Shown one piece after another: positions 170 through 64,000 of a DNA stretch of 64,000 nucleotides. The stretch covers positions 1-64,000 of the forward strand of contig NZ_CANKXK010000002.1 in NCBI RefSeq assembly GCF_947487605.1, given 5' to 3'. The position numbers and the translations under genes were made by a program. This DNA comes from an uncultured Algibacter sp. (GTDB lineage Bacteria; Bacteroidota; Bacteroidia; Flavobacteriales; Flavobacteriaceae). A model generated the notes under the pieces. The model saw only the letters and a list, made by a program, of their open reading frames with translations, had not been told where the DNA came from and searched no databases. Position 1 is the stretch's first letter, and each line of letters begins with the position of its first letter.

Positions 170-1636
170 CTATTCTACAACAATCTTTTTAGTTGCCTTT
201 CCTTTATCTGTAATTACTTCTAATAAATAGCTGCCTGAACTTTGATTTGATACATCTAGTACAGATTTTGTGGTACTTTTTATAAACTGACCTAAGTAGT
301 TATATAAATTCATAACTTCTAAAGTATACCCAGATTTTAGGTTTAAATGAATTACTTCTGTTGTTGGGTTTGGATGTATACTTAAAGCTTCTAACACAAA
401 ACTATCACTGGATAGCAAAGCACTTAAATCATACACTCGGGCATGACCAGAGTCAATTGCACTCCCATCATTAAAAGGTGCACCAATTGCCAATTCTGAC
501 CCATCATTAGACAAACTAACACTCCATCCTGCATTGTCCGCTAGGTCTTCTCCATTAATATCACTACCAACGTGAATCCAATTAACATTATTATAATCAT
601 AAATTTGAACAATTCCAGGTTGAACAGCTCCAATTGCCACTCTTGACCCATCACTAGATAAACTAACACTATATCCAAAATTATTAAGTATTGCTGCGCC
701 ATCAATGTCATTACCTAATTGTACCCAACTAACTCCATTATACTGATAAACCCTTGCATGACCTGCTCTAAATGCAATCTCGCTATTATTATAAGCTCCT
801 ATTGCTACTCTTGACCCATCATCAGATAAGCTTACACTTGCACCAAATAAATCACCAGCTGCTTCTCCATCTAAATCACTGCCTAACTGTATCCAATTAA
901 CACCATTATATTCATAAATACGTGTATGTCCTGCTCCATCTCCATTTCCATCATTAAGTAAAGCCCCAACAGCCAATCTTGTACCATCACCAGATAAGCT
1001 AATACTAGCCCCAAACCAATCTCCTTCTGCTTCTCCATCAATATCACTTCCTAACTGTATCCAATTAACACCATTATATTCATAAATACGTGCATGACCT
1101 GCCCAATACCCATTTCCACTATTGTTATACGCTCCAATTGCTACTCTCATGCCATTACCAGATAAGCTTACTCTAAATCCCGAAATGTCATCTGCTGCTT
1201 CGCCTTCAATATCACTTCCTAATTGGACCCAATCTCCACCACTATATTCATAAACACGCACATGACCATAATCATCACCAATACCACTACTACCATCATT
1301 AGAATACGCTCCTATAGCCACAATTGAACCGTTATCAGATAAACTAACACTACCTGCATGGTCTTCTGCTGCTTCTCCATCTATATCAGTACCCAACTGA
1401 CTCCAATCTCCACTGACATATTCATATATACGTGCATGACCTGACCAGTACCCATTTCCACTATTAGAATAAGCTCCTACAGCCAAACGTAATCCATCCC
1501 CAGACAAACTAATACTCTCGCCAGAGTGATCATTCATTGCTTCTCCATCAATATCATTGCCTAATAATATTTGAGCATTTATTCCCAAACAAAAAGTCAA
1601 GTTAACTATAACTACAATAAAATAATTTTTCCACAT
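170..1636 (-). CDS. Secreted seven-repeat protein with T9SS type A sorting domain
   Basis: The 488-residue product starts with a signal peptide (about residues 1-22, ending near INA-Q). Seven repeats of about 50-56 residues follow, each opening with a form of QLGSDIDGEA, then SLSGDG and RVAIGAYNN, and ending GHARIYEYNGVNW. Seven such units suggest a seven-bladed beta-propeller of the FG-GAP/integrin-like kind. Residues from about 415 (SIHPNPTTE) to the end (KKIVVE) are a type A sorting domain for the type IX secretion system, so the protein should be exported and either anchored or released outside the cell. It lies between a recombinase remnant and a complete recombinase, so it may be mobile-element cargo. 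The ligand is unknown. Confidence 0.85.
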   Translation of the reverse strand: MWKNYFIVVIVNLTFCLGINAQILLGNDIDGEAMNDHSGESISLSGDGLRLAVGAYSNSGNGYWSGHARIYEYVSGDWSQLGTDIDGEAAEDHAGSVSLSDNGSIVAIGAYSNDGSSGIGDDYGHVRVYEYSGGDWVQLGSDIEGEAADDISGFRVSLSGNGMRVAIGAYNNSGNGYWAGHARIYEYNGVNWIQLGSDIDGEAEGDWFGASISLSGDGTRLAVGALLNDGNGDGAGHTRIYEYNGVNWIQLGSDLDGEAAGDLFGASVSLSDDGSRVAIGAYNNSEIAFRAGHARVYQYNGVSWVQLGNDIDGAAILNNFGYSVSLSSDGSRVAIGAVQPGIVQIYDYNNVNWIHVGSDINGEDLADNAGWSVSLSNDGSELAIGAPFNDGSAIDSGHARVYDLSALLSSDSFVLEALSIHPNPTTEVIHLNLKSGYTLEVMNLYNYLGQFIKSTTKSVLDVSNQSSGSYLLEVITDKGKATKKIVVE

Positions 1637-1774
1637 GATAAATTCAAATTAGAAGTTGATAAAAATAAATTAACAATTGCTATATCTTAGAAAGGGTGAA
1701 CTAAAAATACTACATTTTATATTTATAGGCTAATAATACCTTTAATATTTGCAGAAGGAATTACAAAATTAAAA

Positions 1775-2974
1775 CTAACCACTTCCCTTTAACTTTTCCA
1801 TCTCCAAACTAATCTTCTTCTGTACCACTTTTCCATAACTATCTTGAGTAACCTTCATATTAGAATGCCCTAGTAACTCAGATACAATCTCCATAGGCAC
1901 ATCATTATATAACAGCACCGTGCTTGCAAAGGTTCTTCTAGCCATATGTGTGGTTAATCTTTTATCAATACCAACTAATACTGCTATTTCTTTTAAATAT
2001 GAATTGTACCGTTGATTACTAATTCTTGGAAAAATATAAGTTTCATCGTTTTGGTACGCTGCTAAAATCTCCAATGCTTTAGGTAGTAATGGTACAGAAA
2101 GCTCCTTAGATGTTTTCTCTCGCTTCATCTTAACCCACAGATTGCCATCAAATCCTTTAATTATGTTAGCTCTTTTTAAATTCATTAGCTCCCGATATGG
2201 CAATCCTGTGTAACAAGAAAACACAAACAAATCTTTAATAAATTGTAATCTCGATTGTGTAAACTCATGTCGTTCTAATTTTGCTAATTCTTCAGGAGAT
2301 AAAAACACCACTTCTATTCTAACCGTTTTAGTTTTATAAAGTAGAAATGGGTCTTTACTTAGATAGTTTTTAGCCAATGCTGTTCTTATAACTCTTCTAA
2401 ACCTTTGTAAAGATTTATTAATAGTAATTTGCTTTTGTTTCTTTTCAACTTTTAAGTAATATTCAAAATCATGTAGAAATTGTAATTCTAACTTTTTTAA
2501 TGGGTAATCATTAGTTTTAAACTGCCATTTAATGAATGATTTTACATCTTTTTTTATATAGTTGAACTTATTCCATGTTACTTGCTTAATATCAATATTT
2601 ATAAGCGTTTTAAGCTTTTTTAAGTAGCGTTCAAAGAACTCAACTACATTGTATTCTCTTTGTGTTTTAACGCCTTTATATAGGCTGTAAATGTCTTCAA
2701 CAGAGAAACTCTCTTCCTTAACTTGAAGCATTAAAAAAGCCCTGTTAATTTTTGTTTTAACAAGGCTTAGTTGTGAGTTTATAAAGTCTGAATCTGGTTC
2801 TGGTGGATTTACTGTTTGTTGCTTAGAATTCCAGTTACTTGGGTTGATAAAAAGTCCTGTAGAGAATTCTCTTCTTTGTTTACAATAGGTGATTCTACAT
2901 TTCAATATGCAGTTACCCTTTTTGTTAGGTCTATTTTTAGCTATTAAAAACAGTGCTTTCATAATATTATTCAT
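1775..2974 (-). CDS. Tyrosine-type site-specific recombinase (integrase)
   Basis: This is a Bacteroidota-type integrase: an N-terminal arm-binding domain, a SAM-like core-binding domain (about residues 85-200) and a C-terminal catalytic domain. The catalytic set is visible: Arg in GLPYREL, Lys in REKTSKEL, HMAR (HxxR), LLGH and the nucleophile Tyr in DSYGKV. I chose the ATG at 2974 (MNNIMKALFL), because the upstream extension to a GTG at 3043 does not look like integrase sequence. The gene lies about 200 bp from tRNA-Asn and points away from it, a common arrangement for elements that integrate at tRNA genes. A degraded relative is at 71-151. Confidence 0.9.
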   Translation of the reverse strand: MNNIMKALFLIAKNRPNKKGNCILKCRITYCKQRREFSTGLFINPSNWNSKQQTVNPPEPDSDFINSQLSLVKTKINRAFLMLQVKEESFSVEDIYSLYKGVKTQREYNVVEFFERYLKKLKTLINIDIKQVTWNKFNYIKKDVKSFIKWQFKTNDYPLKKLELQFLHDFEYYLKVEKKQKQITINKSLQRFRRVIRTALAKNYLSKDPFLLYKTKTVRIEVVFLSPEELAKLERHEFTQSRLQFIKDLFVFSCYTGLPYRELMNLKRANIIKGFDGNLWVKMKREKTSKELSVPLLPKALEILAAYQNDETYIFPRISNQRYNSYLKEIAVLVGIDKRLTTHMARRTFASTVLLYNDVPMEIVSELLGHSNMKVTQDSYGKVVQKKISLEMEKLKGSG

Positions 2975-3144
2975 TTTTTTAGTTTTAGTGGGATTAATAA
3001 TATGGTGTAAAAAGATGCACACCTCAGAAAAATTGTTGCACACCTTATAGTATGCCTTTTTTTACCAAATAAGTTGGCAAGTTGTCATTTGAAGTAAAAT
3101 GCAATAAATGCATACAATGCAGTTATATAGGAAAGTTTATGGCA

Positions 3145-5818: not shown

Positions 5819-7910
5819 ACAAATTAATGTTGCTTTAATTGGCAATCCAAATACTGGGAAAACTTCTGTTTTTAATGCCTTAACAGGGCTTAACCAAAAA
5901 GTTGGCAACTATCCAGGTATTACTGTCGAAAAAAAAGAAGGTATTTGTAAACTCCCTAGGGGTGTAAAAGCACACATAATAGACCTACCTGGAACTTATA
6001 GTTTAAACGCTTCTTCGCTAGATGAAAATGTAGTTATCGAGTTACTTTTAAATAAAAATGATAAAGATTTTCCAGATATAGCAGTTGTCGTTAGTGATGT
6101 TGAAAACTTAAAACGCAACCTCTTACTTTTTACTCAAATTAAGGATTTAGAAATACCAACATTACTAGTCATTAATATGGCAGACCGAATGAATTACAAG
6201 GGTATTTCATTAGATATTGATTATTTAGAAGAACATCTTCAAACAAAAATTGCCTTAATAAGTACTCGAAAAAATACAGGTATCGACAATTTAAAGTCTT
6301 TAATTGCTAATTACAAAGACATCTCGATTACACCTTGTTTAAGTGCTTCTGAAATTGACAAAGAATACTTTGATAATTTACGCAAGGCATTCCCAAATCA
6401 ATTACTTTATAAACTATGGTTGGTTATTACTCAAGATGTAAACTTTGGAAAAACAGATAGAAACGAAATTGATGCCGTTGCCGATTTTAAAACCAAAAGT
6501 AAAAGCGATTTAAAACGTTTACAACAAAAAGAAACAATAAAACGCTATCAGTTTATAAATAATGTACTTAAAATTGGGCAAACTATTGATGCTTCTCAAG
6601 CCAAAGATTTGCGCTCTAAATTTGACAGGGTTTTAACCCATAAAGTTTGGGGTTATGTAATATTTGCTATAATACTACTAACCATTTTTCAAGCCATTTA
6701 CGATTGGGCGGAGCTACCAATGGACTTTATTGATAACATATTTGCTTCGTTAAGCGAATGGACAAAAAATGCACTTCCTAAAGGCGCATTTACAAGTTTA
6801 TTGGCTGAAGGTATTATTCCAGGACTTAGCGGTATTGTTATATTTATACCTCAAATTGCCTTTTTGTTTTTGTTTATTGCTATACTTGAAGAAAGCGGTT
6901 ATATGAGTCGTGTGGTCTTCCTTATGGATAGAATCATGCGTCGTTTTGGTCTTAGCGGAAAAAGTGTTGTTCCTCTTATTTCTGGAACCGCTTGTGCTAT
7001 TCCTGCTATTATGGCAACTCGAAATATTGAAAGTTGGAAAGAGCGTTTAATCACTATTTTAGTAACTCCTTTTACAACTTGTTCGGCAAGACTTCCTGTG
7101 TATTTAATTATTATTTCATTAGTAATTCCTCAAGGCAGGTTTATCGGTCTAAGCTACCAAGCTTTAACCCTAATGCTGTTATATTTAATTGGATTTGGTA
7201 CAGCGGTTTTTTCAGCTTATTTACTTAATAAAATATTAAAAATAAAAAGCAAATCATTTTTTGTAGTCGAAATGCCCAATTACAAATTACCGCTTTTTAA
7301 AAACGTCGCATTAACCGTAATAGAAAAAACTAAGTCATTTGTTTTTGGAGCTGGAAAAATCATTTTAGCAATTTCAATTATACTTTGGTTTTTGGCATCT
7401 TATGGTCCTGGGGAACAATTTAATAATGCCGAAGAAATAGTAAAAACAGAATATAGTTCGGATAACTTAACTGAAGAAGAATTACAACACAAAATTGCGT
7501 CTCATAAATTAGAACACTCATTCATTGGCATAACAGGTAGAGCCATTGAGCCTACCATAAGACCACTAGGATACGATTGGAAAATAGGCATTGCCATTGT
7601 AAGTAGTTTTGCTGCTCGCGAAGTATTTGTGGGCACATTGGCAACTATATACAGCGTAGGAAATGATGATGAAGACACGATTAAAAATCGAATGGCAGGT
7701 GAGGTAAATCCAATATTAGGAGGGCCTTTATTTACATTTGCATCAGGAATATCATTATTATTATTTTATGCCTTTGCTATGCAATGCATGAGTACTTTGG
7801 CGATAGTAAAAAAAGAAACAAACTCTTGGAAATGGCCTATATTACAGCTAGTAATAATGACGGCTTTTGCGTATATTGTAGCTTTAATAGCATTTCAATT
7901 TTTGAAATAA
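5811..7910 (+). CDS. feoB: Ferrous iron transporter FeoB
   Basis: The 699-residue product has an N-terminal G domain and a C-terminal permease. The G1 loop is GNPNTGKTS (residues 11-19), G3 is DLPGTYS, and G4 is seen in INMAD. The membrane part contains the FeoB gate motifs (GYMSR, SGTACAIPAIMATR, FTTCSARLPVY, SSFAAREVFVGT). It imports Fe2+ across the inner membrane, gated by GTP. The start at 5811 (MSKQINVALIGN) is preferred over an in-frame ATG at 5796 inside feoA, because it places the G1 loop at the usual distance. Confidence 0.96.
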   Translation: MSKQINVALIGNPNTGKTSVFNALTGLNQKVGNYPGITVEKKEGICKLPRGVKAHIIDLPGTYSLNASSLDENVVIELLLNKNDKDFPDIAVVVSDVENLKRNLLLFTQIKDLEIPTLLVINMADRMNYKGISLDIDYLEEHLQTKIALISTRKNTGIDNLKSLIANYKDISITPCLSASEIDKEYFDNLRKAFPNQLLYKLWLVITQDVNFGKTDRNEIDAVADFKTKSKSDLKRLQQKETIKRYQFINNVLKIGQTIDASQAKDLRSKFDRVLTHKVWGYVIFAIILLTIFQAIYDWAELPMDFIDNIFASLSEWTKNALPKGAFTSLLAEGIIPGLSGIVIFIPQIAFLFLFIAILEESGYMSRVVFLMDRIMRRFGLSGKSVVPLISGTACAIPAIMATRNIESWKERLITILVTPFTTCSARLPVYLIIISLVIPQGRFIGLSYQALTLMLLYLIGFGTAVFSAYLLNKILKIKSKSFFVVEMPNYKLPLFKNVALTVIEKTKSFVFGAGKIILAISIILWFLASYGPGEQFNNAEEIVKTEYSSDNLTEEELQHKIASHKLEHSFIGITGRAIEPTIRPLGYDWKIGIAIVSSFAAREVFVGTLATIYSVGNDDEDTIKNRMAGEVNPILGGPLFTFASGISLLLFYAFAMQCMSTLAIVKKETNSWKWPILQLVIMTAFAYIVALIAFQFLK

Positions 7911-27660: not shown

Positions 27661-28242
27661 TCGAGTATGAAGCTCTAAATTTTAATCAAATCTAATTAAT
27701 TTAAGATTTATTTTAACTAAAAAGACCTGTCAGGTTTTTGAAACCTGACAGGTCTGAATTATATTTTCTTTAGATAAGACAGGAATTATAAGCATAGTCT
27801 TTAGTACGGTTCTATTTTATATTGAAATACAAAGGAAATAGAAACGAATTTAATCAAAAAGAATTCCTCGACGCTCTGTGTTGGGGTTTCCATTGAAATT
27901 GTCATTCCCGTGAAATCGAAGATTCATGAATCCAATGATTTAAATATGAATTAATGAATAAAACGGGAATCTAAATATAAAATTTTGATTTTTGACCATT
28001 AAAGGTCAAAATGAAACGCGCGAAATACCCCTATGGCTCTGCCTCGGGGATAGTATGTTTCAAGAAATTTTTTATTTGGAGTTGTTTAACCCTCCTAATT
28101 TCGATAAATCGAAATTGTCCTCCCTTTAAAACAAAGGGAGGAGCAAGTTCTAATTGTATTTTTTATTATTAACTAAAGTTTGGAATTAATAAGGAGCTAA
28201 AAGAAATCCGAAAAGTCTTTGGAGCAATTTAGCAAAGCATTT
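27661..28242. other. Repeat-rich intergenic region
   Basis: No gene was seen. It holds a 33-bp palindrome (27723-27755), a CATTCCCGT ... ACGGGAAT pair (about 27903-27973), a block reading CCCCTATGGCTCTGCC near 28027, and AATTTCGATAAATCGAAATT followed by CCTCCCTTT..AAAGGGAGG (28098-28142). These are several kinds of intergenic repeats stacked together next to the dead tex gene. Confidence 0.6.
27723..27755. repeat. 33-bp palindrome, REP copy 1
   Basis: AGACCTGTCAGGTTTT, central T, then GAAACCTGACAGGTCT: 16-base arms with one mismatch. Same family as the copies flanking the RAYT-hemF gene. Confidence 0.9.
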
Positions 28243-29566: not shown

Positions 29567-29599
29567 AGACCTACAAGGTTTTAAAAACCTTGCAGGTCT
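29567..29599. repeat. 33-bp palindrome, REP copy 2
   Basis: AGACCTACAAGGTTTT, central A, AAAACCTTGCAGGTCT. One mismatch between the arms. It belongs to the CTACAAGG/CTTGCAGG subtype also seen at 59051-59130. Confidence 0.9.
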
Positions 29600-56187: not shown

Positions 56188-57453
56188 ATGCAGAAGTACA
56201 ACATTTCACGTAGTCATTATTTTTATGCTATTGGTTTAAGTTATAAAAAAGCCGATGCAGAAATTAGAGGTCATTTTAGTTTAGATGACGACTCTAAGCA
56301 TGCCTTGTTAATCCAAGCCAAAGAAAATGGTATAGAAAGTTTAGTAGTAACTTCTACCTGTAACCGAACTGAAATTTACGGTTTTGCACAACACCCTTTT
56401 CAACTTATTCAACTGCTTTGTGATAATACAAGGGGTACAGTTGAAGAATTTCAAGATGTTGCTTATATCTACAAAAACAAAGATGCTATTGCGCACATGT
56501 TTCGTGTAGGCTCTGGTTTAGACAGCCAGATTCTTGGAGATTTCGAGATAATAAGTCAGTTAAAAACAAGCACAAAACTTTCTAGAAAGTACGGTTTATT
56601 AAACCATTTTACGGAGCGTTTAGTAAATGCCGTTATACAAGCAAGCAAGCGTATTAAAACCGAAACCGATATTTCTTCGGGTGCAACGTCTGTTTCTTTT
56701 GCTTCTGTTCAATATATCTTTAAAAATATTGAAGATGTTACCAATAAAAATATTTTGCTCTTTGGAACAGGGAAAATAGGAAGAAACACTTGCGAAAATC
56801 TAGTAAAGCATACTAAAAACGAGCACATTACTTTAATAAACAGAACCAAAGATAAAGCTGAACAAGTTGCTGGAAAATTCAATCTAGTAGTTAAAGATTA
56901 TGCTAATTTACAAGAAGAAGTAAGCACATCTGATATTTTAATTGTAGCTACAGGCGCGCAACGTCCAACTATTGACAAACACATCATTCAAACCAAAAAG
57001 CCACTTTTAATTTTAGATTTATCTATTCCTAAAAATGTGAATGAAAACGTTCAAGAATTGGATAATGTCACTTTGGTACATCTAGATCATCTGTCTCAAA
57101 TTACTGATGAAACTTTAGAAGCTCGTAAAGCGCATATCCCTTCCGCAGAAGCGATTATAGAAGAAATAAAAGGGGATTTTAACAGTTGGTTAGAAACCAG
57201 AAAGTTTGCGCCCACTATTAAAGCGCTAAAACATAAATTGACCGATTTTGCTACTGCAGAATTAGATACACAACGTAAAAAACTATCTGATTTTAACGAA
57301 GAACAAGCAGAATTAATTAGTAATAAAATCATTCAAAAAATTACAAATCATTTTGCGCATCATTTAAAAGATGATGATGTATCTACGGATGATAGTCTGG
57401 AACTTATTAAAAAAGTATTTCAGTTAGAAGAACCACAAAAAACAAATGTCTAA
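56188..57453 (+). CDS. hemA: Glutamyl-tRNA reductase
   Basis: The 421-residue product has the catalytic Cys58 in STCNRTEIYG, RVGSGLDSQILGD, and the NADPH-binding domain (ILLFGTGKIGRNTCENL, about 187-203). It makes glutamate-1-semialdehyde, the first step of heme synthesis by the C5 route. I chose the ATG at 56188 because the promoter lies inside the longer reading. The gene ends with an 8-bp overlap with hemCD. Confidence 0.95.
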   Translation: MQKYNISRSHYFYAIGLSYKKADAEIRGHFSLDDDSKHALLIQAKENGIESLVVTSTCNRTEIYGFAQHPFQLIQLLCDNTRGTVEEFQDVAYIYKNKDAIAHMFRVGSGLDSQILGDFEIISQLKTSTKLSRKYGLLNHFTERLVNAVIQASKRIKTETDISSGATSVSFASVQYIFKNIEDVTNKNILLFGTGKIGRNTCENLVKHTKNEHITLINRTKDKAEQVAGKFNLVVKDYANLQEEVSTSDILIVATGAQRPTIDKHIIQTKKPLLILDLSIPKNVNENVQELDNVTLVHLDHLSQITDETLEARKAHIPSAEAIIEEIKGDFNSWLETRKFAPTIKALKHKLTDFATAELDTQRKKLSDFNEEQAELISNKIIQKITNHFAHHLKDDDVSTDDSLELIKKVFQLEEPQKTNV

Positions 57454-59020
57454 AACCATAAGAATTGGTACGCGCGATAGTGAATTAGCACTATGGCAAG
57501 CCAAAATAGTACAAAGTTTACTCGAAAATGCTGGTCATAAAACAGAACTCGTTCCCGTTAAATCTACGGGCGATTTAGTGTTAGACAAACCACTTTACGA
57601 ACTTGGTATTACTGGTATTTTTACCCGAACTTTAGATATTGCCATGTTAAATCATGATATCGATATTGCAGTACATTCGCTTAAAGATGTGCCAACAGTT
57701 TTACCAAAAGGCATAGTGCAAGCGGCTGTTTTAAAACGTGGTAACGTAAATGACACCCTTGTTTTTAAAGACAATGAAGAGTTTTTAGGCGCTAAAGATG
57801 CTGTAATTGCCACAGGTAGTTTACGCCGAAGAGCACAATGGTTAAACCGTTTTCCAACACATACCATTACTGATTTGCGCGGTAATGTAAATTCGCGTTT
57901 ACAAAAGCTACAAGATAATGATTGGAACGGTGCTATTTTCGCCGCTGCAGGTATTGGTAGAATAGGCATTAGGCCAGAAGAAGCTATTAATCTAGATTGG
58001 ATGATTCCTGCACCTGCTCAAGGTGCTATTATGATTACTGCTCTTGAGGAAGACGATTTTGTAAAAGAAGCCTGCGCAGCACTAAACCACGAAGAAACTG
58101 AAATTTGCACCACTATTGAGCGTGAATTTTTAAATAAACTAGAAGGTGGTTGCACTGCTCCTATTGGTGCTTTAGCATACATTAAAGATGAAGAGATCAA
58201 CTTTAAAGGTGTTTTATTAAGTCCCGATGGAACCAAAAGAATTGATGTTACTCGAGTTAAAAAACTAGGCGAACATCATGATATGGCACAATTCTGTGCC
58301 GATTTTATTATTGAACGCGGCGGGAAACGTTTAATGGATAAGATTAAAAATTCCAGCAAAAAAAGGAATGTATTTTCTACAAAAAGTTTTACGGAAGACC
58401 AACGTTTATTATTTCATGAAAAGGTAGTTGCAGAAAGTTCAGATTTTATCAAAATAAGTTTGAATAGAATACATCCACGATTCTTAAAAAATGAAATTCA
58501 AAATGTAGTGATTACCAGTAAAAATGCTGTAGAATCATTAACTACAAACTATTCAGCAATAGAATTACAGTTTAAAAACATTTACTGCGTAGGTAGAAGA
58601 ACTAAACGTTTAGTAGAAAATAAAATAGGCAAAGTAAAACACACCGAAAAGAATGCTAAAAAACTAGCAGAGTATTTGGTAGAATATATTGAAGGGACGG
58701 AAGTTACATATTTTTGTAGCGATATTAGATTAGATGCATTACCAACTATTTTAACCGAAAACAATATAAAAGTTAACGAAGTTGAAGCTTACCAAACTAA
58801 ATATGATGGCTATAAAGTTGATAATTCTGTTGAAAGCGTCATGTTTTACAGTCCATCAACAGTTGAAAGTTTTGTACGTAGCAACAAAAACGAAGTGATT
58901 GCTTTTTGTATTGGAGAAACCACTGCAAAAGAAGCCAAAAAGCATTTTAAGGATGTTCGAGTTGCGAAAGTACCAACTGTAGAAAGTGTGATTGAGTTGG
59001 TGAATGAGCATTATGTGTAA
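57446..59020 (+). CDS. hemC-hemD: Fused hydroxymethylbilane synthase and uroporphyrinogen-III synthase
   Basis: The 524-residue product carries HemC in residues 1 to about 300: RIGTRDSELALWQA, ATGSLRRRAQWL, DLRGNVNSRL, and the cofactor Cys236 in LEGGCTAPIG. HemD follows from about 320: NVVITSKNAVESL, GRRTKRLVENKIGKVKHTEKN, YFCSDIRLDALPT, and MFYSPSTVESFV. Thus two successive steps lie in one chain, common in Flavobacteriaceae. It overlaps hemA by 8 bp. Confidence 0.95.
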   Translation: MSKTIRIGTRDSELALWQAKIVQSLLENAGHKTELVPVKSTGDLVLDKPLYELGITGIFTRTLDIAMLNHDIDIAVHSLKDVPTVLPKGIVQAAVLKRGNVNDTLVFKDNEEFLGAKDAVIATGSLRRRAQWLNRFPTHTITDLRGNVNSRLQKLQDNDWNGAIFAAAGIGRIGIRPEEAINLDWMIPAPAQGAIMITALEEDDFVKEACAALNHEETEICTTIEREFLNKLEGGCTAPIGALAYIKDEEINFKGVLLSPDGTKRIDVTRVKKLGEHHDMAQFCADFIIERGGKRLMDKIKNSSKKRNVFSTKSFTEDQRLLFHEKVVAESSDFIKISLNRIHPRFLKNEIQNVVITSKNAVESLTTNYSAIELQFKNIYCVGRRTKRLVENKIGKVKHTEKNAKKLAEYLVEYIEGTEVTYFCSDIRLDALPTILTENNIKVNEVEAYQTKYDGYKVDNSVESVMFYSPSTVESFVRSNKNEVIAFCIGETTAKEAKKHFKDVRVAKVPTVESVIELVNEHYV

Positions 59021-59099: not shown

Positions 59100-59130
59100 G
59101 ACCTACAAGGTTTTAAAAACCTCGCAGGTC
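59100..59130. repeat. 33-bp palindrome, REP copy 5
   Basis: GACCTACAAGGTTTT, central A, AAAACCTCGCAGGTC. Two mismatches between arms. Forms an inverted pair with 59051-59077 between hemCD and hemE, 11 bp before hemE. Confidence 0.85.
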
Positions 59131-59141
59131 AAAACAAAGAT

Positions 59142-60170
59142 ATGAGCATTAAAAACGATTTATTTTTAAGAGCATTAAAAGGAGAAACCGTTAATCGTCC
59201 ACCAGTATGGATGATGCGTCAAGCAGGACGTTACTTGCCAGAATTCATGGAAATTAAGGCAAAGTATGATTTCTTTACACGTTGCCAAACGCCAGAATTA
59301 GCAAGTGAAATTACAGTGCAACCTATCCGAAGATATGGTATGGATGCCGCTATTTTATTTAGTGATATTTTGGTTATTCCACAGGCCATGAATATTGAGG
59401 TACAAATGAAACCTAATTTTGGACCCTATTTACCAAACCCTGTGCGCGCTCAAAAAGATGTTGATAATGTTATTGTTCCTGATGTTACTCAAGCATTAGA
59501 CTACGTTTATCAAGCCATAAAAGCAACCAAAGAAAAGCTAAACGACGAAATTCCGCTAATAGGATTCGCAGGGTCACCATGGACTATTTTATGCTATTGT
59601 GTACAAGGACAAGGCAGTAAAAACTTCGATAAAGCCAAAGAGTTTTGCTTTACAAATCCCGTTGCGGCACACCAATTATTACAAAAAATTACAGACACCA
59701 CTATTGCTTATTTAAAAGAAAAAGTAAAAGCAGGTTGTAACGCAGTTCAGGTTTTCGATTCTTGGGGAGGCATGCTTTCGCCTGTAGATTATCAAGAATT
59801 CTCATGGCAATATATCCAACAAATTATTGATGCTTTAAAGGACGATGCGCCCGTTATCGCTTTCGGAAAAGGCTGCTGGTTTGCACTTGGCGAGATGGCA
59901 AAATCTGGAGCTTCAGCTTTAGGTGTAGATTGGACCTGTTCTGCTAGAAATGCCCGTTATTTAACAGGCGGCAACATCACGTTACAAGGAAATTTCGATC
60001 CCACACGCTTATTTTCTCCACCTGCCGAAATCAAGAAAATGGTACACCAAATGATTAACGAATTTGGTAAAGACAAATACATCGTAAACCTCGGCCACGG
60101 TATTTTACCAAACATTGGTTTGGATAATGCCAAGGCGTTTATCGATGCCGTTAAAGAATACGGAAATTAA
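59142..60170 (+). CDS. hemE: Uroporphyrinogen decarboxylase
   Basis: The 342-residue product has [16 protein letters not shown] (Arg and Asp-contact region), [25 protein letters not shown], and [12 protein letters not shown] near the C-terminus. It removes four carboxyl groups from uroporphyrinogen III to give coproporphyrinogen III, the substrate of HemF. It follows hemCD, with two palindromes in the gap. Confidence 0.95.
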
Positions 60171-60340: not shown

Positions 60341-61099
60341 ATGATTAAAAACATCATTTCAGGAATTAAAGCATACTTCGGTACTTTCAGTTTAATTTCA
60401 AAATTAAAACTCTGGAAGTATTTTGCTATTCCAATGCTAATAAGCCTCATAACAGCCATTGTCGTTTTTGGTTCAGCCTACGGGTTATCAGATAATATAG
60501 GTGGCTTTATTTCAAAAATATGGATTTGGGATTGGGGCAAAGACACCTTTTCATCCATAAGCAACTTCATTGGAGGCCTTATTGTTATAATCATCGGACT
60601 CATCCTTTTCAAACACATCATAATGGCACTTTCTGCACCTTTTATGAGCCCCGTTTCAGAAAAAATAGAAGCCCATTTTACAGGAAATCCGCCACATTCG
60701 CATAGAGACACCACCTTTATGCAACAACTCGTTCGTGGTATAAGAATTAATGGTAGAAATTTAATCATGGAATTGCTGCTTACTATTCCCATTCTACTTT
60801 TAAAATTTATTCCCGTAGTCAATATATTTTCAACCATACTACTCTTTATGGTACAAGCCTATTATGCAGGTTTTGGTAATATGGATTACACCTTAGAGCG
60901 TCATTATCAATACAAAGAAAGCCTACAATTTGTTCGTAAACATCGTGGATTAGCCATTGGTAACGGTATTGTATTTATTCTGTTTTTATTAATCCCTGTA
61001 ATTGGTGTAATTTTAGTGCTTCCGTTATCGGTTACAGCAGCTTCAACAAGAACAGTAAAAGCGCTTCAACTTAAAAACAACCCTATTAATGCAGCTTAA
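60341..61099 (+). CDS. EI24 (CysZ-like) membrane protein
   Basis: The 252-residue product has four or more hydrophobic helices (about 30-50, 75-95, 140-175, 200-230) and the EI24-family segment IMALSAPFMSPVSEKIEAHFTG. CysZ in this family transports sulfate; the role in Bacteroidota is not settled. It overlaps the GNAT gene by 11 bp and sits in the heme operon. Confidence 0.82.
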   Translation: MIKNIISGIKAYFGTFSLISKLKLWKYFAIPMLISLITAIVVFGSAYGLSDNIGGFISKIWIWDWGKDTFSSISNFIGGLIVIIIGLILFKHIIMALSAPFMSPVSEKIEAHFTGNPPHSHRDTTFMQQLVRGIRINGRNLIMELLLTIPILLLKFIPVVNIFSTILLFMVQAYYAGFGNMDYTLERHYQYKESLQFVRKHRGLAIGNGIVFILFLLIPVIGVILVLPLSVTAASTRTVKALQLKNNPINAA

Positions 61100-61631
61100 T
61101 TTTGGTTCATATCATATAACACCTATTCAACCAAAAGACGGATGGAATATCTGTAACTTTGCAGTCGCTAATGAAGACCGATTAAAACGTTATTTCCCAA
61201 AAACATTAGAGCAAAATTTAACACCAGATTTATCAAATCATTTTGTATCAAAAAAGGTTAAACAATTTGAAGCTAAAGAGGAGTTTTTATTCACCTTAAG
61301 AGAAAACGAATCCCGTAAATTAGTTGGTTTGGTGTATATCAAAGAAATTAATTGGATTAAAAAACAAGGGGAATTCGCCTATGCTATAGATTATAATGTG
61401 GAAGGCAAAGGATTAGCAACAGATGCTATAAAACATCTATCAGATTATGCTTTTGAAACATTAGGTTTAGAAACTTTGCAAATTATCGTTCATAAAAGTA
61501 ATCTAGGAAGTTTAAAAGTAGCCGAAAAGAATAATTTCACTTGGATAAAAACACTTAAAAATGAGTTTACACCTCCAGGAGAAGCACCACTAAACATGGA
61601 ATTATATGAATTGTATAAAGAGATTGAATAA
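61089..61631 (+). CDS. GNAT family N-acetyltransferase
   Basis: The 180-residue product has a RimJ-type GNAT fold: KLVGLVYIKEINW, KQGEFAYAIDYNVEGKGLATDAIKHL (acetyl-CoA loop) and LQIIVHKSNLGSLKVAEKNNFTWI. The acceptor is unknown. It overlaps the EI24 gene by 11 bp and is followed by a REP palindrome and the RAYT-HemF gene. Confidence 0.88.
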   Translation: MQLNFGSYHITPIQPKDGWNICNFAVANEDRLKRYFPKTLEQNLTPDLSNHFVSKKVKQFEAKEEFLFTLRENESRKLVGLVYIKEINWIKKQGEFAYAIDYNVEGKGLATDAIKHLSDYAFETLGLETLQIIVHKSNLGSLKVAEKNNFTWIKTLKNEFTPPGEAPLNMELYELYKEIE

Positions 61632-61651
61632 AATTTAATGATGAGGCAACA

Positions 61652-61684
61652 AGACCTGTTAGGTTTTTAAAACCTGACAGGTCT
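61652..61684. repeat. 33-bp palindrome, REP copy 6 (left of RAYT)
   Basis: AGACCTGTTAGGTTTT, central T, AAAACCTGACAGGTCT. One mismatch (G-U type) between arms. It lies 27 bp upstream of the RAYT start. Confidence 0.92.
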
Positions 61685-61711
61685 TTGAAAAAATCTAAAA
61701 AAATAACTTAA

Positions 61712-63187
61712 ATGGAAAAAATAGAAAAAGACCATTATTATCATATTTTTAATCGAGGAATTAATAGCGATATTATTTTTCAGAACGACGATAATATGTT
61801 CTATTTCTTGAATTTGGTTGAAAAACATTTAAAGAATAAAGTTGATATTATTGCGTATTGTTTGATGAATAATCACTTTCATTTAGTTGTTAAAATCATT
61901 TCGGAAGATACAGAAGCAACCCAATCATTTTCAAACCTTTTTAATGCTTACGCTAAAGCGTATAATAAGCAACAAAATAGAACGGGAACGCTTTTTGAAA
62001 GACCATATAAAAGAATAAAAATTACTGATGAAGCTTATTTAAAAAACTTAATTCTTTATATCCATAAAAATCCTGAAAACCACAATATTGTTGGTGATTT
62101 TGAAGATTATAAGTTTTCATCTTATCATTCCTATTTGGTTGAAGGGAAAAAGTATCTTTCAGTTGAAAAAAATTATATTTTAAATTTGTTTGAAGACATC
62201 AATAATTTTAAATATGCGCATAAATCAGACCTGTCAGGTTTTGAAAACCTGACAGGTCTTACAAACCAAGAAAAGCAAAAAACCATCAAAGACAAATTCT
62301 ACCAATACATACAAAACCTTCAAGACCGCATTACCTCAAAACTGGAAGCCATTGATGGAAAAGCGAAATTTCAAGAAGATATTTGGAAACGACCAGAAGG
62401 TGGTGGCGGACGCACCCGAGTGATTAAAAACGGCAATGTTTTTGAAAAAGGAGGCGTCAATATTTCTGGCGTTCATGGCAAATTGCCAAAATCGATGCAG
62501 GCATATTTTAAAGTAGGTGATGTTGATTTTTTTGCCTGCGGATTAAGTTTAGTTTTACATCCTAAAAACCCGATGGCGCCAACCGTTCATGCTAATTGGC
62601 GTTATTTTGAAATGTATGACAAAGCAGGAGAAATAATTGATAGTTGGTTTGGTGGCGGACAAGATTTAACACCTTATTACCTGTTTGAAGACGATGCAAA
62701 ACATTTCCATCAAACCTGTAAAACAGCTTGTGATAAACACAACTCAGAATTCTATCCAACCTATAAAAAACGTTGTGATGAATACTTTTATAACACACAT
62801 AGAAACGAAGGCAGAGGTATAGGTGGTTTATTCTTCGATTATTGTAAGGCATCAGAAACCATGACTATGGAAAATTGGTATAACTTTGTAACCGAAGTTG
62901 GAGATAGTTTTCTTGACGCCTATGTACCCATAGTTGAAAAACGAAAGGATTTACCATTCACTAAAGAACAAAGAAACTGGCAAGAAATTCGAAGAGGACG
63001 CTATGTAGAATTCAATTTAGTACATGATAAAGGCACGCTTTTCGGACTAAAAACCAACGGACGTATAGAAAGTATTTTAATGAGTTTACCGCCGCATGTG
63101 CAATGGGTGTACGACCATCATCCAGAAGCTAGAAGTGATGAAGAAAAATTAATAAACATATTGAAAAACCCTGTGGATTGGGTTTAA
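61712..63187 (+). CDS. hemF: RAYT transposase fused in frame to coproporphyrinogen III oxidase (HemF)
   Basis: The 491-residue product has two parts. Residues 1-171 are a REP-associated tyrosine transposase (Y1/HUH family): HYYHIFNRG, the metal motif NNHFHLVV (His55, His57), SNLFNAYAKAYNK, RTGTLFERPYKR, and the catalytic Tyr116 in LYIHKNPENH. Residues 172-182 are encoded by a perfect 33-bp palindrome (62227-62259). From 192 (KDKFYQYIQNLQ) to 491 is a complete HemF: GGGGRTRVI, NISGVHGKLP, WFGGGQDLTPYYLFEDD and RGIGGLFFDYCK. HemF oxidatively decarboxylates coproporphyrinogen III. The position of the usual HemF Met reads ATC, so translation seems to begin in the transposase; an in-frame TTG at residue 159 is another option. 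Confidence 0.9.
   Translation: MEKIEKDHYYHIFNRGINSDIIFQNDDNMFYFLNLVEKHLKNKVDIIAYCLMNNHFHLVVKIISEDTEATQSFSNLFNAYAKAYNKQQNRTGTLFERPYKRIKITDEAYLKNLILYIHKNPENHNIVGDFEDYKFSSYHSYLVEGKKYLSVEKNYILNLFEDINNFKYAHKSDLSGFENLTGLTNQEKQKTIKDKFYQYIQNLQDRITSKLEAIDGKAKFQEDIWKRPEGGGGRTRVIKNGNVFEKGGVNISGVHGKLPKSMQAYFKVGDVDFFACGLSLVLHPKNPMAPTVHANWRYFEMYDKAGEIIDSWFGGGQDLTPYYLFEDDAKHFHQTCKTACDKHNSEFYPTYKKRCDEYFYNTHRNEGRGIGGLFFDYCKASETMTMENWYNFVTEVGDSFLDAYVPIVEKRKDLPFTKEQRNWQEIRRGRYVEFNLVHDKGTLFGLKTNGRIESILMSLPPHVQWVYDHHPEARSDEEKLINILKNPVDWV
62227..62259. repeat. 33-bp palindrome, REP copy 7 (inside the RAYT-hemF frame)
   Basis: AGACCTGTCAGGTTTT, central G, AAAACCTGACAGGTCT: perfect 16-base arms. 33 bases is 11 codons, with no stop in the frame used, so it links the two domains as a peptide reading DLSGFENLTGL. 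Confidence 0.95.
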
Positions 63188-63195
63188 AATAACCA

Positions 63196-63228
63196 AGACC
63201 TGTCAGGTTTTAAAAACCTGACAGGTCT
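63196..63228. repeat. 33-bp palindrome, REP copy 8 (between hemF and hemB)
   Basis: AGACCTGTCAGGTTTT, central A, AAAACCTGACAGGTCT: perfect arms. It lies 8 bp after hemF and 15 bp before hemB. Confidence 0.95.
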
Positions 63229-63243
63229 GAATAACATAAAGCT

Positions 63244-64000
63244 ATGTTCCCATTAAGAAGAAACCGAAGATTAAGAACCAACGAAGCCATTCGCTCCCTA
63301 GTTCGCGAAACCATAATCACACCAAACGACTTTTTAGTACCACTTTTTGTAGTAGAAGGTAAAGGCATAAAAGATGAAATTCCATCGATGCCAAACTATT
63401 TTCGTTACAGTTTAGATTTACTAGAAAACGAGGTTAAGGAACTTTGGAAACTAGATTTAAAATCAGTATTACTTTTTGTAAAAGTACCAGATAATCTAAA
63501 AGACAATAAGGGTACTGAAGCCTTAAATCCAAATGGGCTCATGCAACGCGCTATTAAAACCGTTAAAAATGCATGTCCAGATATGTTAGTGATGACCGAT
63601 GTGGCATTAGACCCCTATTCGGCATACGGACACGATGGTATTATTGAAAACGGACAAATAATAAACGATGAAACAGCCGAAGTTTTAGCAGAAATGAGTA
63701 TATCTCATGCCGAAGCTGGTGCAGATTTTGTCGCACCTAGCGATATGATGGACGGACGCATTTTAACCATTCGTGAAGCTTTAGAAGATGAAGGGTTTAT
63801 CAATACAGGTATTATGAGTTATTCCGCAAAATATGCCTCAGCATTTTATGGCCCTTTTCGAGATGCTTTAGATTCTGCTCCTGTGGACATACAAGACATA
63901 CCAAAAGACAAAAAAACATACCAAATGGATTATGGCAACCGTTTTGAGGCTATTCGTGAAACCGAAATGGATATTGATGAAGGCGCCGATATCGTTATGG
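63244..64000 (+). CDS. hemB: Delta-aminolevulinic acid dehydratase (porphobilinogen synthase), partial
   Basis: The frame starts MFPLRRNRRLRTNEAIRSLV and runs open to the window end (252 codons of an expected ~325). The family pattern is clear: VPLFVVEGKG, DVALDPYSAYGHDG, SHAEAGADFVAPSDMMDGR and the Schiff-base Lys region MSYSAKYASAFYGPFRDA. It condenses two aminolevulinate molecules into porphobilinogen. The 3' end lies beyond the window. A palindrome stands between it and hemF. Confidence 0.95.
   Translation, partial: MFPLRRNRRLRTNEAIRSLVRETIITPNDFLVPLFVVEGKGIKDEIPSMPNYFRYSLDLLENEVKELWKLDLKSVLLFVKVPDNLKDNKGTEALNPNGLMQRAIKTVKNACPDMLVMTDVALDPYSAYGHDGIIENGQIINDETAEVLAEMSISHAEAGADFVAPSDMMDGRILTIREALEDEGFINTGIMSYSAKYASAFYGPFRDALDSAPVDIQDIPKDKKTYQMDYGNRFEAIRETEMDIDEGADIVM

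Follow-up and report, generated by a model that had tools for sequence, protein, structure and literature searches.

REP-associated tyrosine transposases (RAYTs) are the textbook case of transposase domestication in bacteria, which raises the question of what makes hosts retain them. A 64,000-nucleotide stretch of DNA from an uncultured Algibacter sp. (contig NZ_CANKXK010000002.1, positions 1 to 64,000; hereafter the window) contained a RAYT joined in frame to HemF, the oxygen-dependent coproporphyrinogen oxidase. The question raised by this locus was what such a joined gene represents and how it is maintained.

The RAYT-HemF locus

The frame and its translation were checked, and positions 61712-63187 formed a single ATG...TAA frame of 491 codons without interruption. 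The RAYT, a perfect 33-bp REP palindrome and a complete HemF followed each other within it, as the initial annotation had described. The features of the locus were as follows.

57446-59020, plus strand: hemC-hemD of the local heme cluster (Pfam Porphobil_deam and HEM4)
59142-60170, plus strand: hemE (Pfam URO-D)
60341-61099, plus strand: EI24/CysZ-like membrane protein gene (Pfam EI24)
61089-61631, plus strand: GNAT acetyltransferase gene adjoining the 5' side of the RAYT (Pfam); its stop directly precedes the hemF ATG in several RAYT-less relatives
61651-61685, plus strand: upstream REP, located after the GNAT stop and ahead of the RAYT start (palindrome, repeat searches and shuffles)
61712-62221, plus strand: RAYT (HUH/Y1 transposase) half, residues 1-170 (Pfam Y1_Tnp, catalytic residues, Foldseek)
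62227-62259, plus strand: REP palindrome as in-frame linker (16/16 pairs, RNA hairpin, paired changes, low linker pLDDT)
62285-63187, plus strand: HemF half, ending at the TAA (Pfam/NCBIfam, codon survey)
63196-63228, plus strand: downstream REP, between hemF and hemB (palindrome, repeat searches and shuffles)
63244-64000, plus strand: hemB, continuing past the window end (Pfam ALAD)

The heme cluster was thus ordered hemC-hemD, hemE, the EI24-like gene, the GNAT gene, RAYT-HemF and hemB. The hemC and hemD genes likewise shared one frame (57446-59020, Pfam). Since REPs were found on both sides of the fused gene (61651-61685 and 63196-63228), it was regarded as a complete REPtron.

The linker had been described as 11 residues long. 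This held for the REP itself, which encodes about 11-12 residues, but the full linker is longer: 21 codons separate His170, the last residue conserved among RAYTs, from HemF codon 1 (ATC, 62285-62287), and the HemF half runs from codon 192 of the fused chain. In an AlphaFold model of the fused chain (mean pLDDT 74.9) the RAYT domain was mostly confident, the HemF domain was of mixed confidence, and linker residues 175-189 were predicted to be disordered (pLDDT <50).

Identity of the two halves

The RAYT half matched Pfam Y1_Tnp at residues 7-120 with 24.7 bits (cut-off 23). Its NCBIfam REP_Tyr_transpos score of 53.1 bits was below the equivalog cut-off of 80, hence this half was assigned to a divergent branch. 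When the fused chain was searched by Foldseek, HemF structures came first; the first non-HemF match was the E. coli TnpA-REP 4er8, which outranked the IS200-type transposases. His55 and His57 of the HUH motif and Tyr116, which had been named as the catalytic residues, were invariant columns in the alignment of 36 fused sequences, and together with the Pfam match this confirmed the RAYT assignment.

The RAYT half had one match in its own genome, a low copy number. A multi-copy, self-mobile IS200/IS605 insertion sequence was therefore rejected. Carriage by a plasmid or phage was rejected as well: the 13 plasmid records that matched the RAYT half were all below 60% identity, and none of the 16 viral-contig stretches that fitted a pattern encoded a relative by the test applied. 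A partial RAYT match was recorded within a 1029-codon open frame of another genome (G247:C16:6620-6973); apart from the fusions, the listed RAYT matches included no further long frame.

The HemF half matched Pfam Coprogen_oxidas at residues 196-490 (448 bits). It scored 420 bits against the NCBIfam HemF equivalog (cut-off 297), covering positions 2-294 of 294, which bore out its description as complete, and it was 41-51% identical to solved HemF structures (Foldseek).

Distribution of the fusion

The initial annotation had proposed searching the full protein against the genomes of relatives, and this search showed that the fusion recurs. Full-length fused matches with zero stops were obtained in at least 15 of 397 family genomes, and a further fused genome (G157) was found with the RAYT alone as a query. 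Hence, the fusion was present in at least 16 of the 397 sampled family genomes, in 16 genera; these counts are lower bounds, as at most three candidates were scored per genome and the first count covers the best matches only. In a named collection, 27 of 79 RAYT loci were fused, and a looser recheck of all loci returned the same 27, with one locus cut by a contig end (L096) standing outside them. The fused genera include Algibacter, Hyunsoonleella, Flavivirga, Flaviramulus, Aestuariivivens, Gelidibacter, Winogradskyella, Lacinutrix, Polaribacter and Arcticiflavibacter. A one-off insertion in a single strain was rejected by this recurrence.

After the removal of duplicates (L002, L003, L014, L073, L081, L085, L099 and L128) 38 distinct fused sequences remained; L128 is the same sequence as L048 and was used only for its longer flanks. 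The 35 aligned fused relatives were 64-89% identical to the window protein. Among 395 class genomes, whole-length matches at E 1e-150 or better were limited to G000 and G148, and no fused form outside the family was found among the 15 matches at that threshold, which a strongly divergent fusion could escape. The only other genome sampled from the genus of the window (G001) had a separate hemF and zero RAYT matches, which led us to reject fixation by descent in this genus. All of the 25 best-scoring family RAYTs lay beside heme genes and 16 of them were fused, whereas none of the five lower-scoring RAYTs inspected adjoined hemE or hemF.

The REP palindrome as a translated linker

The linker REP, AGACCTGTCAGGTTTTGAAAACCTGACAGGTCT (62227-62259), paired at 16/16 positions around a central G, so that its description as a perfect palindrome between the two halves was accurate. 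It was translated in frame as SDLSGFENLTGL, and its RNA hairpin was predicted at -24.5 kcal/mol (z -8.1). The REP occurred at 27 places of its own genome with at most 3 mismatches, and 4 times in the window, where 100 shuffles averaged 0. The three REPs at the locus and the dispersed genome copies gave this gene the REP flanks of a RAYT. In 15 own-genome REP contexts the 31-bp core was preceded by A and followed by T, and a GT[AG]G guide was not found directly 5' of the core.

A second REP class, GACCTACAAGGTTTTAAAAACCTCGCAGGTC, was located at 59100-59130 of the window, between hemC-hemD and hemE. It is possibly a trace of an earlier RAYT position, as two genomes (G008 and G415) carry a RAYT just 5' of hemE. 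REPs of classes A and B were also seen outside the heme cluster, at 27724-27754 and 29568-29598, about 1.8 kb apart.

Judged by eye, 33 of 37 fusions contained a REP-like sequence in the linker, and some contained two. The best linker palindrome exceeded all 200 shuffles of its own region in 27 of the 37. The REP was read as a DLxGFxNLxG-type peptide in 29 fusions and as an RPARFEKPARS-type peptide in 4, by which a single reading frame for the translated REP was rejected.

Covariation was examined in 31 of the 37 REPs (27 distinct). L053 and L089 were omitted because their best palindrome was a second REP in another register, and L054, L055, L090 and L093 because a full REP was not found. Seven of the 16 pairs had changed on both sides. 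The number of both-side change cells was 31 versus 12.4 +/- 2.8 in shuffles, none of 500 being as high, and the signal vanished when the partner position was slid. A second measure, the count of further pair types, was less clear: it gave 13 versus 11.1 and was reached by 47 of 500 shuffles. On this sequence evidence, the coding REP is seen to stay palindromic through paired changes. All 33 REP bases were common to the window, L017, L072 and L082, while the window and L017 had a synonymous divergence of 0.86 in the RAYT half. The identity of all 33 bases despite such divergence shows that the REP DNA, and not the peptide alone, was kept or renewed.

The linker REPs were further divided by their GTC, GCA or GCT core, a naming introduced here that covered 35 of 38 linkers (all but L054, L058 and L059). 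The class changed 3 times on the RAYT tree versus 10 times on the HemF tree, from which it was concluded that the linker travels with the RAYT. Most of the 36 fused loci examined also carried a REP, or a remnant of one, immediately 5' of the RAYT.

REP classes were searched in 15 fused genomes, with G157 excluded, and in 9 genomes chosen for an unfused hemF. Class A (at most 2 mismatches) was present in 12/15 and 3/9 of these, respectively, at 0 to 24 copies in the fused genomes. Class B was present in 7/15 and 4/9, and class C in 2 of the 24 genomes of both sets. Some fused genomes held few REPs of the searched classes (G155 2, G407 2, G368 1, G176 3), and both class A/B sites of G155 sat at the fused locus.

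Several further observations concerned the sequences around the linker and the upstream REP. Runs of CAA/AAC and AAT triplets at about 2048-2080 of L017 and in the linker of L055 encode poly-Asn, and in-frame slippage at such runs may vary the linker length. In L090, L094, L055, L093, L098, L084 and L092 the upstream REP was read as a GNAT-like C-terminal end, e.g. ...RKDLAGF or ...RPSRF. A palindrome of another family (GACCCACAGGGTC type) was present in more than one copy 5' of the RAYT of L059 (G097), beside a fused RAYT-HemF.

Fused, overlapping, split and empty forms

In the Flavobacterium loci examined, an unfused RAYT lay 3' of hemE and 5' of a small gene, often GNAT-like, that was followed by hemF; hemE and GNAT were named there through their resemblance to the genes of the window. 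Intermediate arrangements were also found. L076 had a fused-type sequence with one extra ATCA unit, by which the frames diverged. This unit (near 6600, the same site in L128 and L075) lies in a short tetranucleotide run before the hemF ATG, and the difference could possibly act as a phase-variable switch between fused and separate HemF. The RAYT and HemF frames overlapped by ATGA in L080 and were separated by a few bases in L079. A near-fusion was seen on the minus strand of L168 (G235, 340-2079), where RAYT and HemF shared a frame but were set apart by two stops and several REP-like peptides.

In RAYT-less relatives hemF often started directly after a GNAT or CHMI-like gene. The most informative pair was L063 and L074. 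The GNAT stop abutted the hemF ATG in L063, and 691 nt lay between the same two codons in L074, with the flanks identical at 292/300 and 585/600 positions (about 97%). The difference was exactly one 691-nt REP-RAYT-REP cassette. An insertion-type history is directly supported by this empty/filled pair, which may represent either a gain or a loss.

In a second pair, L128 (Hyunsoonleella jejuensis) and L075 (Algibacter), every 60-nt window of the cassette, counted from the upstream REP as far as the linker, was 93-100% identical, whereas most 60-nt windows outside the cassette were 67-93% identical, and the identity dropped about 20-25 bases inside GNAT and HemF. The synonymous divergence (dS) between L048 (same contig as L128) and L075 was 0.08 in the RAYT half and 1.34 in HemF. 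Judging from these two relative pairs, the RAYT cassette behaves as removable or exchangeable.

Phylogenies of the two halves

The RAYT tree was calculated without 9 distant RAYT rows, and the HemF tree with 77 rows, 7 long-branch rows and most Flavobacterium rows having been removed. The two halves rejected each other's trees (p-AU 2.4e-47 and 6.8e-8). In a control with 21 loci, GNAT and HemF also rejected each other's trees, with smaller likelihood gaps (112 and 79) than the comparisons with RAYT (147-256). Therefore, the conflict between the RAYT and HemF trees was downgraded from a proof of swapping to support.

One RAYT clade of 42 rows (37 fused plus L076, L079, L080, L088 and L096) was not rejected (p-AU 0.651); in this test L088, which is fused, was not among the 37 counted as fused, and L096 is cut by a contig end. 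Many independent origins are therefore not forced by the RAYT tree alone. A single HemF clade of fused rows was rejected (p-AU 1.8e-6), a pattern that repeated loss would give as well. Both one fusion with spread and repeated loss, and several fusions of a heme-resident RAYT, fit these trees. An ordinary fusion of neighbours at the origin is also possible, since the RAYT is found unfused in the heme clusters of other genera.

The HemF start codon

The codon survey covered 37 fusions (L088, with ATA at HemF codon 1, was not counted here or in the REP counts). HemF codon 1 was ATG in 16 of them; where hemF is a separate gene, it was ATG in 62 of 67 (Fisher p 5.8e-8). The other five separate genes had GTG (1), TTG (1) or no start codon at this position and an ATG just upstream (3). 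A start codon was absent at HemF codon 1 in 21 fusions, including that of the window, where the codon is ATC and not ATG. In 12 of the 37, the window again included, zero in-frame ATG, GTG or TTG codons were present from the RAYT end to the HemF EGGGG motif. These data fit a dependence of HemF on the upstream RAYT start, although HemF may instead begin at a rare start such as ATC.

The alternative is that HemF is made separately and the fusion is merely formal, with free RAYT and free HemF arising through internal initiation, mRNA cleavage at the hairpin or proteolysis of the linker. Internal initiation would use the ATG where it is kept; elsewhere it would need a rare codon, for example ATC, or CTG within the REP. 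The 16 fusions with a retained ATG agree with this proposal, as do the split relatives (L076, L080, L079 and G235), the predicted disorder of the linker and the strong hairpin that its RNA would fold. However, the loss of the start codon in 21/37 fusions and of any usual start nearby in 12/37 would be unexpected if a separate HemF were always needed, and the open frame has persisted at 64-89% identity to the window protein. A separately made HemF was consequently considered rather unlikely.

All but one of the 16 fused genomes (15 of 16) had a HemN, the oxygen-independent alternative enzyme, that scored over its cut-off. This weakens any argument built on HemF being essential, and an 'addiction' to HemF would not be strict.

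Selection on the RAYT half

The omega of the fused RAYT half had a median of 0.169 (range 0.085-0.371; 37 fused pairs, dS 0.1-1.2), and a median of 0.091 was obtained for the unfused Flavobacterium RAYTs (74 pairs). These ratios indicate that the RAYT half is under purifying selection, yet is less constrained than the unfused form. The HUH histidines and the tyrosine were intact in 37 of 38 distinct fused sequences, L088 included.

The HUH motif of L164 (G157, 1498-3093) was NQFH, the first His being changed to Gln, with the whole frame and two REPs kept. By its sequence, L164 is a natural catalytic-loss variant. The retention of the fusion in G157 suggests that the nuclease activity is not always the thing that is kept.

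Purifying selection would be expected if the fusion benefited the host, with the RAYT half serving as a DNA/RNA-binding domain that ties HemF to the control of its own mRNA or of genes with REPs; in a variant of this proposal the dimerisation of HemF tunes the nuclease. The repeated occurrence in 16 genera and the location of this RAYT clade within heme clusters (25/25 best matches) also speak for a benefit. The presence of the fusion varies within genera, though (G001 without it; L063/L074), and one lineage has lost a HUH histidine, so that a host benefit appears quite improbable.

The same degree of doubt applies to a neutral accident, in which the RAYT half would be a dispensable, slowly decaying tag, kept since frameshifts hurt HemF. 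The intact frame of G157 despite its lost histidine, an omega somewhat above that of unfused RAYTs, and the occurrence of separated and empty states are consistent with such decay. Against it stand the catalytic residues intact in 37/38 sequences, the REP palindromes maintained by paired changes and an omega far below 1. The probability of a sequencing or assembly artefact is practically nil, as the same junction type was found in 38 distinct sequences from independent assemblies, including the single-contig genomes G148, G180, G191, G271 and G368.

Proposed origin and maintenance of the fusion

The reading preferred here, with a probability of about 0.6, is that a heme-cluster REPtron rides on hemF by translational fusion, with its nuclease residues kept, and can be gained, lost or swapped as an N-terminal module. 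In this model the REPtron (REP-RAYT-REP) would sit on the 5' end of hemF, with the RAYT ending in an in-frame REP in place of its own tail and stop. A comparison with the unfused Flavobacterium RAYTs suggests that the REP replaced the native C-terminal tail. The ribosome would pass through the REP into HemF and produce a predicted 491-residue RAYT-linker-HemF chain.

The tethered RAYT half would presumably still cleave REP single strands. The fusion may secure expression of the RAYT from the heme operon and make its loss difficult, since any stop or frameshift in the RAYT would silence HemF too. Hosts would tolerate it if HemF accepts an N-terminal extension, as we propose. HemF is a homodimer in known structures, and such a dimer would pair two RAYT domains. 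The cassette could move when homologous flanks recombine, or the RAYT could move it by acting on the REPs at its borders.

We propose that in the main a domesticated transposase rides 'piggy-back' on a housekeeping gene here, as a stable commensal. A further proposal is made tentatively, the odds being somewhat against it: the REPtron may have become a mobile N-terminal module that either homes to the hemF start codon or is exchanged there time and again, and that persists by turning into the front part of the enzyme, with the REP acting as both DNA substrate and peptide linker.

The initial annotation had explained the locus by a RAYT copy that inserted, together with its flanking palindromes, at the very start of hemF and was kept as it did not break the frame. 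The position agrees with the in-frame fusion and with the L063/L074 pair. An isolated accident retained for its unbroken frame does not agree with the occurrence in 16 genera, the purifying selection and the frequent loss of the HemF start.

The recurrence and the anatomy of the fusion are established at the level of sequence; the full-length chain, the activity of its halves, the benefit and the movement are predictions. A RAYT is welded to a heme enzyme across many genera, while among relatives overlapping, split and empty forms occur beside the fused one, and this natural set makes direct tests of tethering, host help and cassette movement possible. The REP, moreover, serves as a protein linker while it is coding and still palindromic.

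Comparison with known systems

No paper on a transposase-coproporphyrinogen oxidase fusion protein in Flavobacteriaceae was found in the literature searched, most subscription journals being outside its scope; within that scope the earlier remark that no RAYT-HemF fusion has been described holds.

The closest known system is the RAYT/TnpA-REP family and its REPtrons (E. coli TnpA-REP, 4er8). The HUH and Tyr core, the fold (by Foldseek), the low copy number, the bordering of the gene by its own REPs and a linker REP class that follows the RAYT phylogeny are shared with it. RAYTs are presented in parts of PMC8049555 as single-copy, vertically inherited and not self-copying. Compared with that description, the RAYT reported here is fused to a metabolic enzyme, and its cassette, removable or exchangeable in two relative pairs, conflicts with the picture of vertical inheritance given there. 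Another difference from known RAYTs is that the 15 REPs examined had no GT[AG]G guide adjoining the stem.

According to portions of Quentin et al. 2018 (PMC6006769), TnpA-REP subclass 2.4 has REPs inside the RAYT gene with the frame kept, and the Bacteroidetes RAYTs of subclass 2.6 are flanked by atypical hairpins. An in-frame REP within a RAYT gene is shared with the former, and a Bacteroidetes RAYT with flanking hairpins with the latter. The REP of subclass 2.4 is, in those portions, generally placed between the HUH and Tyr motifs, whereas here it forms the C-terminal junction to HemF. Unusually long proteins were discarded as fusions or annotation errors, as stated in the same portions of that study. 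For E. coli TnpA-REP, an excerpt of PMC8266576 reports that removal of the last 13 residues raised the activity. As the C-terminal region of the fused RAYT continues into the REP peptide and HemF, an effect of the fusion on RAYT activity is plausible in the light of that excerpt.

The Rickettsia palindromic elements, as treated in part of PMC10969869, are palindromes translated in frame inside metabolic genes, a feature shared by the locus described here. No joined transposase figures in that part of the account, and the palindrome here is the REP of the adjoining RAYT. SETMAR/Metnase and CSB-PGBD3, as outlined in extracts of PMC4198141 and PMC3459987, are transposases that were joined to a host protein and kept. 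By those extracts they belong to animal genomes, CSB-PGBD3 being formed via splicing, whereas in the present fusion the partner is a metabolic enzyme, and simple translational read-through within a bacterial operon would join the two. Compared with an ordinary HemF, the same full-length domain is present, here extended at the N-terminus by about 190 residues and in many cases lacking a start codon of its own.
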